A stretch of 64,000 nt of DNA from Acetobacter okinawensis (GTDB lineage: Bacteria; Pseudomonadota; Alphaproteobacteria; Acetobacterales; Acetobacteraceae). The translations under genes were made by a program, and so were the position numbers. Positions within the stretch are counted from its first letter, which is position 1, and every line of letters begins with the position of its first letter. Under the pieces are notes generated by a model. The model worked only from the letters and a program-made list of their open reading frames with translations. It was not told the origin of the DNA and searched no databases. Below, one piece after another: positions 79 to 8,618 of the stretch. Where the stretch lies: assembly GCF_002153655.1 (NCBI RefSeq), contig NZ_JOPJ01000001.1, positions 62,001-126,000 of the forward strand, read 5' to 3'.

Positions 79-1479
79 ATGCGCTACATTTCCACACGCG
101 GGAATGCTCCCGTTCTCTCGTTTTCCGATGTTCTGCTGACCGGCCTTGCCGAAGATGGCGGGCTGTACCTGCCGCAAACATGGCCCGAGTTCTCGCTGGC
201 GGACTGGCAGGCCATGCGCGCCCTGCCCTACCCGGAGCTGGCGGCACGTATTCTGGCCCGCTTTACCGGCTCCGACATTGATGAAGACACGCTCAAAACC
301 CTGTGTGCAAAAGCCTATGCAGGCTTTGACCACCCGGCCATTGTGCCGCTGACACAGGTTGAAGACGGGCTGTTTGTACAGGAGCTGTTCCACGGCCCGA
401 CCCTTGCCTTCAAGGACATGGCCATGCAGGTGCTTGGCCAGCTTTTTGAGCATGTGCTGACCCAGCGTGACGACCATGTGACCATTGTCGGTGCCACCTC
501 GGGCGATACGGGCTCCGCCGCTATTGAGGCCTGCCGTGGCCGCAAGCGCCTGTCCGTTATTATTCTGCACCCCAAGGGCCGCACATCCGAAGTGCAGCGC
601 AGGCAGATGACCACCGTGCGCGAGCCCAACGTGACCAACCTTGCGGTTGAAGGCACGTTTGATGACTGCCAGGATCTGGTCAAAAGCCTGTTCGCGGACC
701 TGCCCTTCCGGCGCGAGATGCACCTCTCCGCTGTCAACTCCATCAACTGGGCGCGTATTGCTGCGCAAATTCCCTATTATGTGCATGCAGCCCTTGCACT
801 GGGTGCGCCCGAGCGTGAGGTCTCCTTTGCCGTGCCTACGGGCAACTTCGGCAATATTCTGGCGGCATGGGCTGCACGCAAGATGGGCCTGCCCATCCGC
901 CAGCTTTGCGTGGGTTCCAACCGCAACGATATTCTGACCCGCTTCCTCAATGCCAATGACATGACCATCAAAGGGGTGGTGCCCAGCCTCTCCCCCTCCA
1001 TGGACATTCAGGTCTCCTCCAACTTCGAGCGGCTTCTGTTTGAACTGCTCGGGCGCGATGCCACCGCCTGTGCACGCATCATGACCGGCTTCCGCAGCAC
1101 GGGGCACATGGATGTGCCGCCAGAAGTGTGGGAGAACGCACGTACCCTCTTCTCCGGTCTGGCGCTGGATGACAGCCAGACCGAGGCCGAAATCCGCGCC
1201 CTGCACCAGCGCTCGGACTATATGGCCGACCCGCACTCCGCCATTGGTATTGCCGCTGGCCGCCGCTTCCGCCAGCCGGGCATACCCATGGTGGCCGAGG
1301 CCACGGCACACCCGGCCAAATTCCCCGACGCCATGGTGGCCGCCACGGGTATTCATCCCGCACTCCCCGTACATCTGGCCGACCTGTTCGAGCGTGAAGA
1401 GCGTTACCGCACGGTCCCCGCGACCGAAAACGCCATCAAGGACGCGGTGCGCGCAGCAGTCCTCTCCAACGCTGGCTAA
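79..1479 (+). CDS. thrC: Threonine synthase
   Basis: Pyridoxal-phosphate enzyme that converts O-phosphohomoserine to threonine, the last step of threonine synthesis, in the cytoplasm. The 466-residue protein has the usual length of the longer bacterial form. The PLP lysine lies in the GPTLAFKD motif (Lys112) and the phosphate-binding loop GATSGDTGSAA follows at about residues 138-148. The ATG at 79 begins the N-terminus MRYISTRG, which is typical of the family. The M16 peptidase gene follows after about 60 bases, an order common in alphaproteobacteria, where thrC often lies downstream of cytochrome oxidase and SURF1 genes. The 78 bases before it contain no complete gene. Confidence 0.97.
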   Translation: MRYISTRGNAPVLSFSDVLLTGLAEDGGLYLPQTWPEFSLADWQAMRALPYPELAARILARFTGSDIDEDTLKTLCAKAYAGFDHPAIVPLTQVEDGLFVQELFHGPTLAFKDMAMQVLGQLFEHVLTQRDDHVTIVGATSGDTGSAAIEACRGRKRLSVIILHPKGRTSEVQRRQMTTVREPNVTNLAVEGTFDDCQDLVKSLFADLPFRREMHLSAVNSINWARIAAQIPYYVHAALALGAPEREVSFAVPTGNFGNILAAWAARKMGLPIRQLCVGSNRNDILTRFLNANDMTIKGVVPSLSPSMDIQVSSNFERLLFELLGRDATACARIMTGFRSTGHMDVPPEVWENARTLFSGLALDDSQTEAEIRALHQRSDYMADPHSAIGIAAGRRFRQPGIPMVAEATAHPAKFPDAMVAATGIHPALPVHLADLFEREERYRTVPATENAIKDAVRAAVLSNAG

Positions 1480-1542
1480 CCAGCCCACTCCCCCAAGCGC
1501 AGGGCTACCCATGTGGTGGCCCTGCTGTTCCTCAGGACAAGA

Positions 1543-2808
1543 ATGACAGACCCCATCCAGCTGACCCGCCTGCCCTCCGGCCTGACCGTTGTGACCGAAC
1601 GCATGGACCGGGTGGAAACCGTTTCCTTCGGGGCCTATATTTCCGCTGGGACCCGCAATGAAACTGCGGCGGAAAATGGCGTATCCCATTTTCTGGAGCA
1701 CATGGCCTTCAAGGGCACCACCAGCCGCTCCGCCCTGCGTATTGCCGAAGAAATTGAGAACGTGGGCGGGCACATCAATGCCTATACCGCCCGCGAGCAG
1801 ACGGTGTTCTACGTCAAGCTTCTCAAGGAAAACCTTGATCTGGGGATCGACATTATTGGCGATATCCTGACCCACTCCACGTTTGACGCCGCCGAACTGG
1901 AACGCGAACGTGGCGTGATTTTGCAAGAAATCGGTCAGGCGAACGACACACCCGATGACGTGGTGTTTGACCATTTTCAGGAAACCGCATTCCCCAACCA
2001 GCCCATGGGCCGCCCCATTCTGGGTACGGAAAGCCTGATCCAGACCATGCAGCGTGAAACACTCATGTCCTACATGGGAACGCACTATAACCCGTCGAAC
2101 ATGATTGTCGCAGCCGCTGGCAATCTGGAGCATGCGGCGGTCGTCGCGCAGGTAGAACGCCATTTTGCCGACCTGCCCACCACAACAGCCCCGGCAATGG
2201 ACAACGCCCTTTACGCAGGGGGGGAGTTCCGTCAGGTCAAGGAGCTGGATCAGGCGCATATTGTGCTTGGCTTCCCCTCCACCGGCTACCATGACCCCGA
2301 CTATTACGCAGCACTCCTGCTTTCCACCCTGCTGGGCGGCGGCATGTCCTCACGTCTGTTTCAGGAAATCCGGGAAAAACGCGGGCTGGTCTATTCGGTT
2401 TACTCTTTCAATGCTCCGTATGAAGGCGGCGGCGTGTTCGGCATTTATGCTGGTACGGGGGAGAAAGAATGTGCCGAGCTTATTCCCGTCACTCTGGAAG
2501 AACTCCGCAAGGTCCAGCTTGGCGTTACATCGGACGAACTGGTCCGTGCGCGTGCACAGCTCAAATCTTCCCTGCTCATGTCGCTCGAAAGCACGGGCAG
2601 CCGGTGCGAGCAGATTGCCCGACAGCTCCAGATTTTTGGCCGCGTCATTCCCACACAGGAAACGGTGGACAAGATAGAAGCCGTCACGCGTGAGGATATC
2701 TGCCGTGCAGCGGCCCGCATTTTTGCAGGCGCTCCCACGCTTGCAGCCCTTGGCCCCATAGGCCACATTCCGTCCCTGCAAAGCATCAAGGAGACACTGG
2801 CAGCATGA
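1543..2808 (+). CDS. M16 family zinc peptidase (mitochondrial-processing-peptidase-like)
   Basis: Zinc metallopeptidase of the pitrilysin M16B group, related to the beta subunit of mitochondrial processing peptidase. The inverted zinc motif HFLEH is at residues 49-53 and the third-ligand region (ERGVILQEI) follows about 75 residues later. The C-terminal domain has the GGGMSSRLFQEIREKRGL substrate-binding signature. The 422-residue length is normal for a single-chain bacterial member. I chose the ATG at 1543 (MTDPIQLTRLPSG) over an in-frame GTG 30 bases upstream because family members begin close to the TRLPSG-type segment. The stop overlaps the pmbA start by four bases, so the two are probably translationally coupled. 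Confidence 0.94.
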   Translation: MTDPIQLTRLPSGLTVVTERMDRVETVSFGAYISAGTRNETAAENGVSHFLEHMAFKGTTSRSALRIAEEIENVGGHINAYTAREQTVFYVKLLKENLDLGIDIIGDILTHSTFDAAELERERGVILQEIGQANDTPDDVVFDHFQETAFPNQPMGRPILGTESLIQTMQRETLMSYMGTHYNPSNMIVAAAGNLEHAAVVAQVERHFADLPTTTAPAMDNALYAGGEFRQVKELDQAHIVLGFPSTGYHDPDYYAALLLSTLLGGGMSSRLFQEIREKRGLVYSVYSFNAPYEGGGVFGIYAGTGEKECAELIPVTLEELRKVQLGVTSDELVRARAQLKSSLLMSLESTGSRCEQIARQLQIFGRVIPTQETVDKIEAVTREDICRAAARIFAGAPTLAALGPIGHIPSLQSIKETLAA

Positions 2809-4169: not shown

Positions 4170-5126
4170 GTGAAACCACGTCTGCTGCGATCTGCCCTGA
4201 GTGCGTTTGTTGGCGCAAGTCTGCTGGTCGGGCCTATGGCCATGCAGGCCGATGCCCGCCCAGGTCAGGGAGGCTCCATGGGAAGCCGGGGCAGCCACAC
4301 ATGGAGTGCGCCACCTGTTACGCGCACAACGCCCTACAGCACCGCCCCCATGGACCGCTCCATAACACCACGCACAGCACCCACACCGGGTTTTGGCGCA
4401 CCGCAGATGGCGGCTCCCTTTGCCCGCCCCATGGGCTACCCCAACCGCCACCCGTTCCTGACCGGGCTTGCCGGGGGCTTTTTGGGCGCCGGACTGTTTG
4501 GCATGCTGAGTGGGCACGGTTTTATGGGCGGGATGCACGGCTTCTTCAGCCTGCTGGGTCTGCTGGTCCAGATCGGGCTGGTCGTCATGTTTGTCATGTG
4601 GCTGGTACGGCGCTTTAGGCGTGGAGCAGCCGGTGGCAACGGCTTTGGCATGGGTACTCCGCGCGGCAGCATGCCCGGAGCAGCCTCTTCCCCCACGGCC
4701 CCTGCTGGTGGTGGTACACCTGTCCAGATTACCACAGCGGATTACCAGTCCTTCCAGCAAACCCTGATGGATATTCAGACTGCGTGGAACCAGCAGAACA
4801 TTCCGGCCATGCAGCAGATGGCAACGCCGGAAATGGTCTCTTACTTCAACGAGCAGCTTGCTACGCTAGCCAGTCAGGGAGCGCGCAATGTTGTCTCCGA
4901 TGTACGCTTCCTTCAGGGTGATCTGGCCGAGGCATGGCGCGAAAATGGTATGGATTACGCCAGCGTAGCCATGCGCTACAGCCTGATCGACCTGACAACC
5001 AACGCAACCGGGCAGGTTGTGGATGGCAGTTCCACTACCCCTGTCACCATTACGGAAGTATGGACGTTTGTCCGGCCTTCTCGCGGTGGGCGCTGGCTGC
5101 TCTCCGCCATACAGCAGGCCCGCTGA
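4170..5126 (+). CDS. Tim44-like domain membrane protein
   Basis: A 318-residue envelope protein. An N-terminal signal sequence runs to about residue 30 (likely cut at ADA-RPG) and is followed by a Gly/Ser/Pro-rich, low-complexity stretch. A Gly-rich hydrophobic membrane segment lies at about 90-150, ending in WLVRRFRRG. The C-terminal 130 residues resemble the Tim44-like domain found in bacterial membrane proteins of unknown role (YSLIDLTTN, VTEVWTFVR-type strands). Translation starts at a GTG with no better ATG nearby. It is the last gene of the thrC-side run and ends at a strong hairpin terminator. In mitochondria Tim44 tethers the import motor, but the bacterial function is not established. 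Confidence 0.8.
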   Translation: MKPRLLRSALSAFVGASLLVGPMAMQADARPGQGGSMGSRGSHTWSAPPVTRTTPYSTAPMDRSITPRTAPTPGFGAPQMAAPFARPMGYPNRHPFLTGLAGGFLGAGLFGMLSGHGFMGGMHGFFSLLGLLVQIGLVVMFVMWLVRRFRRGAAGGNGFGMGTPRGSMPGAASSPTAPAGGGTPVQITTADYQSFQQTLMDIQTAWNQQNIPAMQQMATPEMVSYFNEQLATLASQGARNVVSDVRFLQGDLAEAWRENGMDYASVAMRYSLIDLTTNATGQVVDGSSTTPVTITEVWTFVRPSRGGRWLLSAIQQAR

Positions 5127-5399: not shown

Positions 5400-6359
5400 T
5401 CAGTGCATCCATATTTGTAAAAAATGATCGCCCAGCAGGCCGCAGAACAGAAAAAAGAGATACGCCAGAGAAAAACGGAAGGATATACGCGCAGCTTTAT
5501 CCCCCTTCTGGCTTGCGCCGTTCTCGTCCTGCGGCTCAAGCAATATGCGCACGGCGCAGGCAACAAAACCAAGCCCCAGCACCACCGCAGTTACTGTATA
5601 AAGCCAGCCACTAGCCCCGACAAAAGACGGAATAAGCGACACAGCAAGCAGGACCAGAGTGTAGAAAAATATCTGCCAGCGTGTATGCCGCACGCCGCGC
5701 ACAACCGGCAGCATGGGAATACCTGCACGCCCATAATCCTTGCAGGCATACAGCGCCAGGGACCAGAAGTGAGGCGGTGTCCAGAAGAACACAATGCCAA
5801 ACATGACCACCGGCATGACCGCCATGTGGCCCGTGGCTGCGGCCCAGCCGATCATGGGGGGAAAAGCCCCCGCAGCCCCGCCGATAACAATATTCTGCGG
5901 CGTGGAGCGCTTGAGCCACATGGTGTAGATGACAGAATAAAAGAAAATGGAAAAAGCCAAAATGGCAGCAGCCAGCGTGTTGGTGGCAATCCACATCAGG
6001 CAGACAGACAGGCAGGAGAGTCCAACGCCGTAAGCCAGTGCCTCGTTTTGCGGAATGCGGCCCGAGGGAACCGGGCGGGTAATGGTCCGCTGCATGATCG
6101 CGTCAATATCGCGGTCATACCACATGTTAATGGCCCCGGCCGCACCAGATGCCAGACAGATGCAGAAGATGGTCACCAGCCCGACAAACGGGTTCAGATG
6201 CCCCGGCGCCATGAACATTCCCGCAGCACCCGTAAAAACAACGAGCGAAATCACGCGGGGCTTGAGCAACGCCAGCCAGTCACGCGCCTGCGTACCAACC
6301 TGTTCTGTTTGAAAACGGGGGCGTCTGGGCTGCGGGGCGGAAAGACTGGCTTCGCTCAT
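5400..6359 (-). CDS. ctaB: Protoheme IX farnesyltransferase (heme O synthase)
   Basis: Integral-membrane prenyltransferase that adds a farnesyl group to heme B to make heme O, needed by bo3-type ubiquinol oxidases and as the precursor of heme A. The UbiA-family metal/diphosphate motif is NMWYDRDID, and the second conserved loop is DYGRAGIPMLPVVRG. The 319-residue length and nine or so hydrophobic segments fit the family. The ATG at 6359 overlaps the stop of the oxidase-I-like gene by four bases, and a CoxF-like gene follows at once. In this family of organisms the enzyme would still be required for a heme-O or heme-A quinol oxidase encoded elsewhere. Confidence 0.96.
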   Translation of the reverse strand: MSEASLSAPQPRRPRFQTEQVGTQARDWLALLKPRVISLVVFTGAAGMFMAPGHLNPFVGLVTIFCICLASGAAGAINMWYDRDIDAIMQRTITRPVPSGRIPQNEALAYGVGLSCLSVCLMWIATNTLAAAILAFSIFFYSVIYTMWLKRSTPQNIVIGGAAGAFPPMIGWAAATGHMAVMPVVMFGIVFFWTPPHFWSLALYACKDYGRAGIPMLPVVRGVRHTRWQIFFYTLVLLAVSLIPSFVGASGWLYTVTAVVLGLGFVACAVRILLEPQDENGASQKGDKAARISFRFSLAYLFFLFCGLLGDHFLQIWMH

Positions 6360-7624
6360 ACAACAGCACTCCCTGCCTTACTGGCCTCGGCCACGCCTAC
6401 ACGGCTATCCGGCACGGGAATAGCGCGCTGGAAGCTAATGGCCGCCGCCAGAACAAACACCACTGCCGCCACGCCAAACAGGGCACACCCCAGCACCTGC
6501 ATGCCAGAGCCAAACACGCAGAGTGTTGCGACCGCAGTCAGCGCAAAATGGAGCTTGGCCAGAGACTGCGGGTACCAAAAACCACAGGCCTCGCCCCGCC
6601 ACAGGTAAAAACCGCCACAAACTGCATAGAGCGCGCCAAGCTGCAAAGCGGGGTGCAGGCCGGTACCCTGCACAAGCTGTACCACCCAGCCACCAGCCAC
6701 GACTGCTAAAAATCCCATCCCCCACAACAGTGGGGTGTGGAGAGAAACACGCGCCCGCCACGTACCGGCAAGCCACAGCCCAGCAAGACACACAGCCGAC
6801 AGGGAACACAGCGCCAGACCAACATTGCCGATAAGCAGCGCGTTCTGGCTATCGCTCCCATGTGCAAGGCTGCTCTTGGCCCATGCCACCACACCAATGG
6901 CGGCGGTTGTGGCCATAATATAAGCAACAGGCCGTGTCTGTACCTGACCGATCCGCGCGGCCATCTCAAACACAATGCCAAACCCGGCGAGCAGCACAAT
7001 CAGGCCAACAGGCCCTGCAAAATACTCAGCCCCGACAACCGGGCTGATCGCAGGCCACAGCCACGTACGCAGCACAGCAGCCGCAAAAACAGGAGCGCAC
7101 AACAGCACAACCGTGGCGGAGAGCATTTCCCCCCAGACAAAGGGGGAGAAGGATGCCTGCGTCCGGCTATCCGCACAGCTATCAAAAATTGTGGCCAGCA
7201 GCACCATGGCGGACATAAGCGCACCCACCGACCATAATACATGCGCAAAGCGCGCATCGGCCAGTGTGCAGGTCAGCAGAAAAGACAACGCAAGAACAGC
7301 AACACCCGCCAGATTCAGCCGCCCCAGCACCATGTGCTCGCGCCCAAGAGCCCGAGGCAGCCAGAGCGTGCCAAAACCGCTGACCAGAGCAGGCACCACC
7401 ACATAAAGCAGCATCAGTGCCGGGTGTGCCTGCGTCAGCCTGCCGCACAGGTCTGTGGCGGGCAACATGCCCAGACCAGCCAGAACGGAAACCCCACCCC
7501 CAACAAGAGCCGCAAGGGCTGCAAGCAGCAGGTAGGCTGTTCCGGCGGCAGAATCCTGCCGCTGGCTGGGGGTTTTACCCACCGTGGCAGATTGCGGGAT
7601 AGGCTGGCTGTGCGCGGAGATCAT
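6356..7624 (-). CDS. Degenerate heme-copper oxidase subunit I-like protein (CuB and heme a3 ligands lost)
   Basis: A 422-residue polytopic membrane protein aligning by eye to cytochrome c oxidase subunit I (about 530 residues). Matching blocks are HPALMLLYVVVPALVSGFG (family HGxxMxxFxxxPAxxGGFG), PFVWGEMLSATVVLLCAPVFA, FAGPVGLIVLLAGFGI (FGHPEVYILILPGFGI), VAWAKSSLAHG (VVWAHHMYTVG), and GALYAVCGGFYLW plus SLAKLHFALT near the end. By this alignment His67 and His324 keep the two low-spin heme ligands. The CuB ligand of HPEVY is Gly204, its cross-linked Tyr is Leu208, the HH pair is Lys250-Ser251, and the high-spin heme His is Gly322. The WTVYPPL loop and about 14 residues before the HFH site are missing. 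The ATG at 7624 starts the globally alignable form; an in-frame upstream ATG exists at 7771. It heads an overlapping operon with ctaB. It cannot be a normal oxidase, but the reading frame is intact. Confidence 0.85.
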   Translation of the reverse strand: MISAHSQPIPQSATVGKTPSQRQDSAAGTAYLLLAALAALVGGGVSVLAGLGMLPATDLCGRLTQAHPALMLLYVVVPALVSGFGTLWLPRALGREHMVLGRLNLAGVAVLALSFLLTCTLADARFAHVLWSVGALMSAMVLLATIFDSCADSRTQASFSPFVWGEMLSATVVLLCAPVFAAAVLRTWLWPAISPVVGAEYFAGPVGLIVLLAGFGIVFEMAARIGQVQTRPVAYIMATTAAIGVVAWAKSSLAHGSDSQNALLIGNVGLALCSLSAVCLAGLWLAGTWRARVSLHTPLLWGMGFLAVVAGGWVVQLVQGTGLHPALQLGALYAVCGGFYLWRGEACGFWYPQSLAKLHFALTAVATLCVFGSGMQVLGCALFGVAAVVFVLAAAISFQRAIPVPDSRVGVAEASKAGSAVV

Positions 7625-7775: not shown

Positions 7776-8474
7776 TTACGTTTTTGGCAGGTTTTCCAGC
7801 GTTACCAGCGTAAACAGGCCAAACGGCCGCACAGGCTGGATGTAAGCCCGTGCAATATCCTCCTGCGGGAGCAGCGATTCCATTGCAAAATCCGGGTGCC
7901 AGCCCAGAGAGTGGGAGGCACGCGCCATGGCGTGTTCCACAGCACCACGGATGCCGCCGGGGGCCAGAAAGTGGTTGACGAACAGAATATACCCGCCCGG
8001 ACGGACAACCCGCTTGAGCTCACGCAGCAGCTTGCGCGGATGTGGCACCACAGATGCAACAAACATGGCAACCGCAATGTCGAAGGAGTTGTCCTCGAAC
8101 GTGGTTTCTTCCGCGTCCATTTCGAGCAGGGCGTTTACGTTTGTCAGGTTGTCATGCCGTGCGCGCTCGCGGGCTTTGGCCAGCATGTCGGTCGAGAGGT
8201 CAATACCGGTAATGGCCTTGGCCTTGGTATAATGGGGCAACGCCAGACCGGTACCCACCCCGACTTCGAGCACATTTGTGCCGGGCAGACCATTGACTGC
8301 GTCCACCGCCCGCAGGCGACCAAAGCGGGAAATACCACCAAAGGCCACGTCGTAAACATTGGCCCAACGCCGATAGGCCAGTTTGACCGCCTCCGCATCA
8401 AGCGCGGAACGCGAGGGAGGAGGTACGGGGCTTTCCCCTCCGCCGGAGGGGTATTCTTGGAGAACGTCACTCAT
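7776..8474 (-). CDS. pmtA: PmtA-type phospholipid (phosphatidylethanolamine) N-methyltransferase
   Basis: SAM-dependent methyltransferase of the Rhodobacter PmtA group, which methylates phosphatidylethanolamine toward phosphatidylcholine. The class I SAM motif is VLEVGVGTGLALPHY, followed by the acidic GIDLSTDML and the post-motif VRPGGYILFVNHFL, where the NH is shared with PmtA proteins. The N-terminal YRRWANVYD block also fits. With the ATG at 8474 (preceded by AGAGAG) the protein is 232 residues; two upstream in-frame ATGs (8501, 8576) would lengthen it. It lies downstream of gshB on the same strand. Phosphatidylcholine is a known major lipid of Acetobacter. Assignment to the exact substrate is from family resemblance. 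Confidence 0.8.
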   Translation of the reverse strand: MSDVLQEYPSGGGESPVPPPSRSALDAEAVKLAYRRWANVYDVAFGGISRFGRLRAVDAVNGLPGTNVLEVGVGTGLALPHYTKAKAITGIDLSTDMLAKARERARHDNLTNVNALLEMDAEETTFEDNSFDIAVAMFVASVVPHPRKLLRELKRVVRPGGYILFVNHFLAPGGIRGAVEHAMARASHSLGWHPDFAMESLLPQEDIARAYIQPVRPFGLFTLVTLENLPKT

Positions 8475-8618
8475 GTTGTCTCTCTGCCCGCTGACGGACA
8501 TTTCTTCAAGAGCCACTATACTCTCTTCCTTCCTGCTTGCAGCACACACCACCAAAGCGCCTTTGTGTGGCAGCATCGTTTTACCGGCATGGCACCACCC
8601 AACAGGGCCAGACGGCTC

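Follow-up and report, generated by a model that had tools for sequence, protein, structure and literature searches.

The window analysed in this work (i.e., the whole stretch of 64,000 nucleotides from Acetobacter okinawensis) holds, immediately upstream of the heme O synthase gene ctaB and on the same strand, a gene for a homologue of heme-copper oxidase subunit I (CtaD/COX1) without an oxygen site. The genes and codons concerned are as follows.

4170..5126, plus strand: Tim44-like protein, convergent neighbour of ctaB (profile matches)
5400..6359, minus strand: ctaB/cyoE, heme O synthase (343.3 bits against the NCBIfam heme o synthase profile, whose cut-off is 246)
6356..7624, minus strand: subunit I homologue derived from CtaD, 422 aa, oxygen site lost (ORF, profiles, alignment, predicted fold)
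6655..6653, minus strand: codon of His324, counted from the start at 7624
7426..7424, minus strand: codon of His67, counted from the start at 7624
7776..8576, minus strand: PmtA-like methyltransferase, upstream neighbour of the CtaD-derived gene (profile matches)

The CtaD-derived frame runs from an ATG at 7624 to a stop at 6356 with no internal stop and has four bases in common with ctaB, the gene being as intact, and as closely joined to its neighbour, as a preliminary description of the locus had stated. That description had also aligned the protein block by block with oxidase subunit I and had called for a profile search and a structural prediction, both of which bear the alignment out. 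The protein matches Pfam COX1 (PF00115) with an E value of 3.6e-13 and 49.6 bits, above the cut-off of 34.8, and so belongs by descent to heme-copper oxidase subunit I; COX1 is the sole Pfam match in the 422 aa, no unrelated family being found. Its score against the curated NCBIfam CtaD equivalog (TIGR02891), 53.5 bits, falls far under the cut-off of 670.75. An AlphaFold model built from 22 Acetobacter sequences, of middling confidence (pLDDT 73, pTM 0.76) and with heme absent from it, has 12 helices of at least 19 residues and one short low-confidence helix, i.e., the 12-helix COX1 fold in a predicted rather than a solved structure, with His67 lying in helix 2 and His324 where helix 10 begins. 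When this fold is compared with the PDB, cytochrome c oxidase chains come first (Z 34), and the titles of the best 50 rows name terminal oxidases, respiratory supercomplexes or a nitric oxide reductase; the best Foldseek matches are also cytochrome c oxidase chains. The product of 6356..7624 is thus, by profile and predicted fold, a real subunit I homologue. Chance similarity and misalignment are ruled out by the separate alignments (phmmer, two MAFFT sets and a later set) together with the predicted fold.

What the protein has kept and lost of its ancestor was read from two kinds of alignment. In phmmer alignments with COX1 chains of solved structure from plant and Rhodobacter, His67 aligns with the first heme a His, GPVGL (204-208) with HPEVY, KS (250-251) with the HH pair and GLH (322-324) with HFH. 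The same correspondence holds when 83 short forms from Acetobacteraceae (18 genus codes; copies chosen by open frame, a split-frame copy of A. papayae being left out before counting) are aligned with 5, and then with 25, full-length CtaD, and every assignment proposed earlier (Gly204, Leu208, Lys250-Ser251, Gly322, His67 and His324) stands. At the positions of the CuB His, its Tyr and the HH pair the window has G204, L208, K250 and S251; among the 83 short forms neither the His nor the Tyr of HPEVY is retained (0% each), the HH pair has its first His in 30% and its second in 2%, and the high-spin heme His, G322 in the window, is likewise found in 2%. The loop with WTVYPPL, which had been described as absent, was measured at its W and Y columns, both of which are gaps in 83 of 83 short forms. 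The set of residues that a functional oxygen reductase needs, i.e., three CuB His with the cross-linked Tyr, and the high-spin heme His, is therefore lacking in the window and in the short forms; the two low-spin heme His, H67 and H324, are present in all 83.

This retention stands out from the general decay of the sequence. Only four columns are invariant in the 83 short forms (His67, Trp164, Trp248 and His324), and the same four are again invariant in a subset of 41 rows whose mean column identity is 29%. The 232 columns conserved at 96% or more in the 25 CtaD have a median retention of 0.19 in the short forms; four of them are kept at 1.00, two being the heme a ligands, and among the 14 columns in which CtaD conserves a His these two alone reach 1.00, the next standing at 0.70 and 0.30. 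Part of the conservation is structural, since the two Trp are as invariant as the two His, and five more columns (Y340, P205, G216, P78 and W342) are retained in 96-99% of the short forms. In addition, the pocket is not the standard heme a pocket, as the two Arg that bind the heme propionates in COX1 are deleted in 81 of 83 short forms, and the helix-1 Arg, which lies near heme a, is retained in 11%. A Trp at residue 131 has been gained in 78 of 83 short forms and in 44 of 44 copies collected later, where the 25 CtaD have Ala (22) or Ser (3), and may fill the vacated space. Compared with CtaD/COX1 (PF00115, TIGR02891), the remnant thus has the same fold, helix number, position before ctaB, low-spin heme His and several structural Trp, Pro and Gly, and differs in lacking the CuB site, the Tyr, the high-spin heme His, the propionate Arg pair and the WTVYPPL-loop columns.

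The preliminary description had further asked for a survey of relatives, in which both His turned out to be present in 127 of 129 copies (20 genus codes; the 129 copies cover 21), the gene lying upstream of ctaB in all 83 aligned loci. The two exceptions are a copy with a broken frame (L184) and one cut by a contig end (L188). Among these copies are 44 later ones outside the alignment, selected because a profile of the 83 gave them a higher score than a CtaD profile did, and mostly close relatives from genera already used (new genus codes g61, g70 and g34); His67 is found in 43 of them, His324 in 43 and both in 42. Two genomes without a match in the search of 299 genomes (G116 and G217) have very divergent copies 5′ of ctaB with both His present. 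The first His of the HH pair, at residue 250, is present in 25 of 83 short forms and in 23 of the 44 later copies. Frames are broken in L026/L053 (A. papayae) and in L184 (genome G382), all from draft genomes, where sequencing error is possible. The matches in G090, G139 and G240 were reported with one internal stop each, and the open frames used for these genomes cover window residues 17-422, 1-413 and 1-408, respectively.

As to distribution, a search with the protein gave matches in 35 of 37 Acetobacter genomes, the window's own included, and in 272 of 299 genomes of Acetobacteraceae, the matches being a mixture of full-length CtaD, whose frames mostly span 530-580 aa and sometimes more, and short forms, for which 400-480 aa is usual. 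All 22 named loci are from Acetobacter, in a scan reaching close relatives only; from that genus and the literature we infer that it is acetic acid bacteria at large that carry the short forms. No match was obtained in 27 of the 299 genomes, 20 of which were tested, together with G016 and G000, for ctaB and COX1-family genes. A profile search gave no match in 16 of 397 genomes, of which the ctaB test covered those other than G257, G316, G328, G337, G339 and G389; ctaB scored above its cut-off in G067, G110, G124 and G249. Two reduced Acetobacter genomes of 1.5-1.7 Mb (G012 and G016) are without the remnant and have no ctaB above cut-off, no COX1-family match and no ctaA, i.e., the heme-copper oxidase pathway looks to have been lost there as a whole.

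The gene is under purifying selection, as the preliminary description had supposed, and this selection is weaker than that on ctaB in every pair compared. In 26 pairs within one genus (shared loci, first 55 codons left out, several pairs with dS >1), dN/dS is 0.055-0.183 for the CtaD-derived gene and 0.004-0.052 for ctaB, the former exceeding the latter in 26 of 26 pairs by 1.6-fold to more than 20-fold. The seven pairs with dS <0.6 give 0.055-0.124 for the CtaD-derived gene.

In all 83 loci the CtaD-derived gene lies on the same strand as the ctaB that follows it. A four-base overlap is seen in 63 of 83 when the nearest ATG or GTG in the ctaB frame is taken as its start, a choice favouring short distances, and a possible start lies within 30 bases in 81 of 83 (none in L062 and L073); the distance from the ctaD stop to the closest candidate ctaB start is 4 to 133 bases in four full-length loci. 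A methyltransferase homologue directly precedes the remnant on the same strand in 81 of 83 loci. Of the five full-length loci, three have the order methyltransferase, CuA-motif ORF (ctaC), ctaD, ctaB. The same pattern that finds a CuA-motif ORF of at least 150 aa in 4 of 5 full-length loci finds none in the 83 fetched stretches. Since the methyltransferase stands before the remnant as it does before ctaC-ctaD-ctaB, ctaC, absent from this order in the window, must have been lost from between, and the window-type locus is the ancestral locus minus subunit II. A Tim44-like homologue is found in 43 of the 83 stretches, whose lengths differ.

In a FastTree reconstruction with the ligand columns included, the remnants group together as one clade, separate from the 25 CtaD; in the ctaB tree, 128 ctaB genes linked to a remnant form one clade with support 0.999. 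The latter set (with A. papayae and its split copy included, and L022, where ctaB is cut short, omitted) was gathered by remnant presence, and so shows one clade rather than the rate of absence within it. Outside this clade fall five ctaB genes from genomes where no remnant was found (G061, G238, G137, G113 and G091, the last starting at a contig end with its upstream gene out of view). Other Acetobacteraceae thus have ctaB without the CtaD-derived gene, which makes the remnant no obligatory partner of CtaB in general.

The genome of the window has one other COX1-family gene, encoding a CyoB/CyaA-type subunit I of ubiquinol oxidase, which shares its superfamily with the remnant and differs from it in being full-length, with HPEVY, HH and HFH in place and 481 bits against PF00115. 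The sole COX2-family match of the genome directly precedes this gene. No cytochrome c oxidase subunit II partner (CuA) was found in this genome or in the 83 fetched stretches, and neither SURF1 nor CtaG had a match in the genome, in which respects it differs from CtaD/COX1 systems. The gene for heme A synthase, ctaA, was found in 14 and not found in 16 of 30 remnant-bearing genomes, which we chose from 33 (the other three, G012, G016 and G130, having neither the remnant nor a ctaA match). Heme A is accordingly disfavoured as the common cofactor, and heme b or o is to be expected.

The gene itself is not new. The preliminary description knew of no such protein, and in this it was mistaken: according to the available part of PMC10715153, Acetobacter has retained next to ctaB a COX1-like gene described as deranged and said to have lost all metal-binding residues. 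The available part of PMC5158111 has ctaB (APT_01774) and ctaD (APT_01775) adjacent in A. pasteurianus, this ctaD being by position the gene described here, and ctaA and ctaB are called still functional remnants of the cytochrome c oxidase cluster in what is accessible of PMC6915089. The position next to ctaB is thus shared with the printed gene; the difference is that here the low-spin ligands stand in 127 of 129 copies, and the alignment corrects the printed statement, as given in that part of the paper, that all metal ligands are lacking. A statement that the protein keeps its low-spin heme ligands was not found in the literature searched, in which Matsutani 2014 figured through the accessible part of PMC10715153. 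The gene and its link to CtaB are therefore already on record; that the low-spin heme site is retained and invariant, and that selection acts on it, was not found in print within that literature.

How could a subunit I without its oxygen site be of use? The best explanation, towards which we incline on balance, is that a retired CtaD found new use in the membrane as a partner of CtaB with one heme. The ancestral cytochrome c oxidase would have been lost, with CtaD left beside ctaB as a vertical descendant; its catalytic half (CuB, high-spin heme and cross-linked Tyr) would then have eroded, and selection would have held the descendant for a new job. Such a protein would carry, beside CtaB in the membrane, one heme (b or o) with two His as its ligands; it would receive or hold heme and support CtaB as a heme-O-handling partner, and would likewise help to load the bo3/ba3 ubiquinol oxidase, for which this genome offers neither SURF1 nor CtaG. 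The one-heme partner of CtaB is favoured because the remnant goes with ctaB, SURF1 and CtaG have no match, and the COX2 match lies beside the ubiquinol oxidase. From the kept ligands, that the protein binds heme seems to us quite probable; that it has a role with CtaB and the ubiquinol oxidase beyond heme binding is nearly evenly balanced, with a slight tilt in its favour. The whole chain, in which subunit I turned once, in the ancestor of Acetobacter and its relatives, into a one-heme, heme-O-handling CtaB partner serving the ubiquinol oxidase, is put forward tentatively, as something short of probable. Of the roles first suggested for the protein, that of heme-handling protein or CtaB partner is the best supported, and that of electron carrier is rated lower.

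Another reading is a one-heme membrane electron carrier, passing electrons, e.g., between a periplasmic cytochrome c or quinol and another partner. In cytochrome c oxidase, it is through the low-spin heme that electrons enter subunit I. Bombella, moreover, has bc1 and cytochrome c genes and no cytochrome c oxidase genes (PMC5112900, in the part available). However, the gene is coupled to ctaB and not to a redox partner, the CuA-motif ORF of the full-length loci is missing from all 83 stretches, and the only COX2-family match of the genome adjoins the gene for ubiquinol oxidase subunit I; we consider such a carrier distinctly unlikely. Unlikely too, if less markedly so, is a structural scaffold without heme, in which the remnant only stabilises CtaB in the membrane and the two His serve for packing. 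This role was proposed as probable in the available part of PMC10715153, and it fits the tight ctaB linkage, two Trp as invariant as the His, and the deleted propionate Arg pair. The printed view was, however, paired with the loss of all metal ligands, which the alignment contradicts, and the only two His kept in full, out of 14, make up the axial ligand pair for a single heme, where the median CtaD-conserved column is retained at 19%.

Erosion might also have gone to its end, the gene being a decaying pseudogene or a frame open only through translational coupling to ctaB. Fast evolution and the few broken copies (L026/L053 of A. papayae, L184 of G382) point that way, and Matsutani 2014 is said to have attributed the loss of ctaD function to accumulated mutations. 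Against this, dN/dS stays at 0.055-0.183, the frames are open over both His in 83 of 83 copies of 18 genus codes (themselves taken by open frame), and the heme a ligands are exactly among the invariant residues; coupling to ctaB would keep the frame, not His67 and His324, and so does not alone explain the residues. This reading is disfavoured, and we give it hardly any credence. Barely more credible is a heme-based sensor, or a part played elsewhere, e.g., in phospholipid methylation alongside the PmtA-like gene upstream: the methyltransferase does lie directly upstream in 81 of 83 loci, but it also precedes full-length ctaC-ctaD in 3 of 5, which makes it ancestral synteny and no new link, and Pfam gives COX1 alone in the 422 aa.

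The loss of the oxygen site together with the unaltered pair of heme-ligand residues suggests that the stripped-down copy took on a new job in heme handling. The proposed role, that of a heme-holding membrane partner in oxidase assembly, is all that it would share with the heme chaperone SURF1 (PMC9145763, in the part available), which is of another protein family and has no match in the window's genome. If heme is present, we would have a natural dissection of cytochrome oxidase, with the low-spin site kept and the oxygen-reducing half discarded, in a lineage of industrial importance. If the proposed role is true, a heme-copper oxidase fold lives on with only its low-spin heme, and offers a handle on a poorly understood step, the transfer of heme O from CtaB into the oxidase. 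A last trace of the ancestor may lie further along the window, where ORFs at 79..2808, near ctaB, resemble thrC and an M16 peptidase when read by eye. Alphaproteobacterial cox operons end in surf1-thrC-M16, so that the window may hold the eroded site of an ancestral cox operon.
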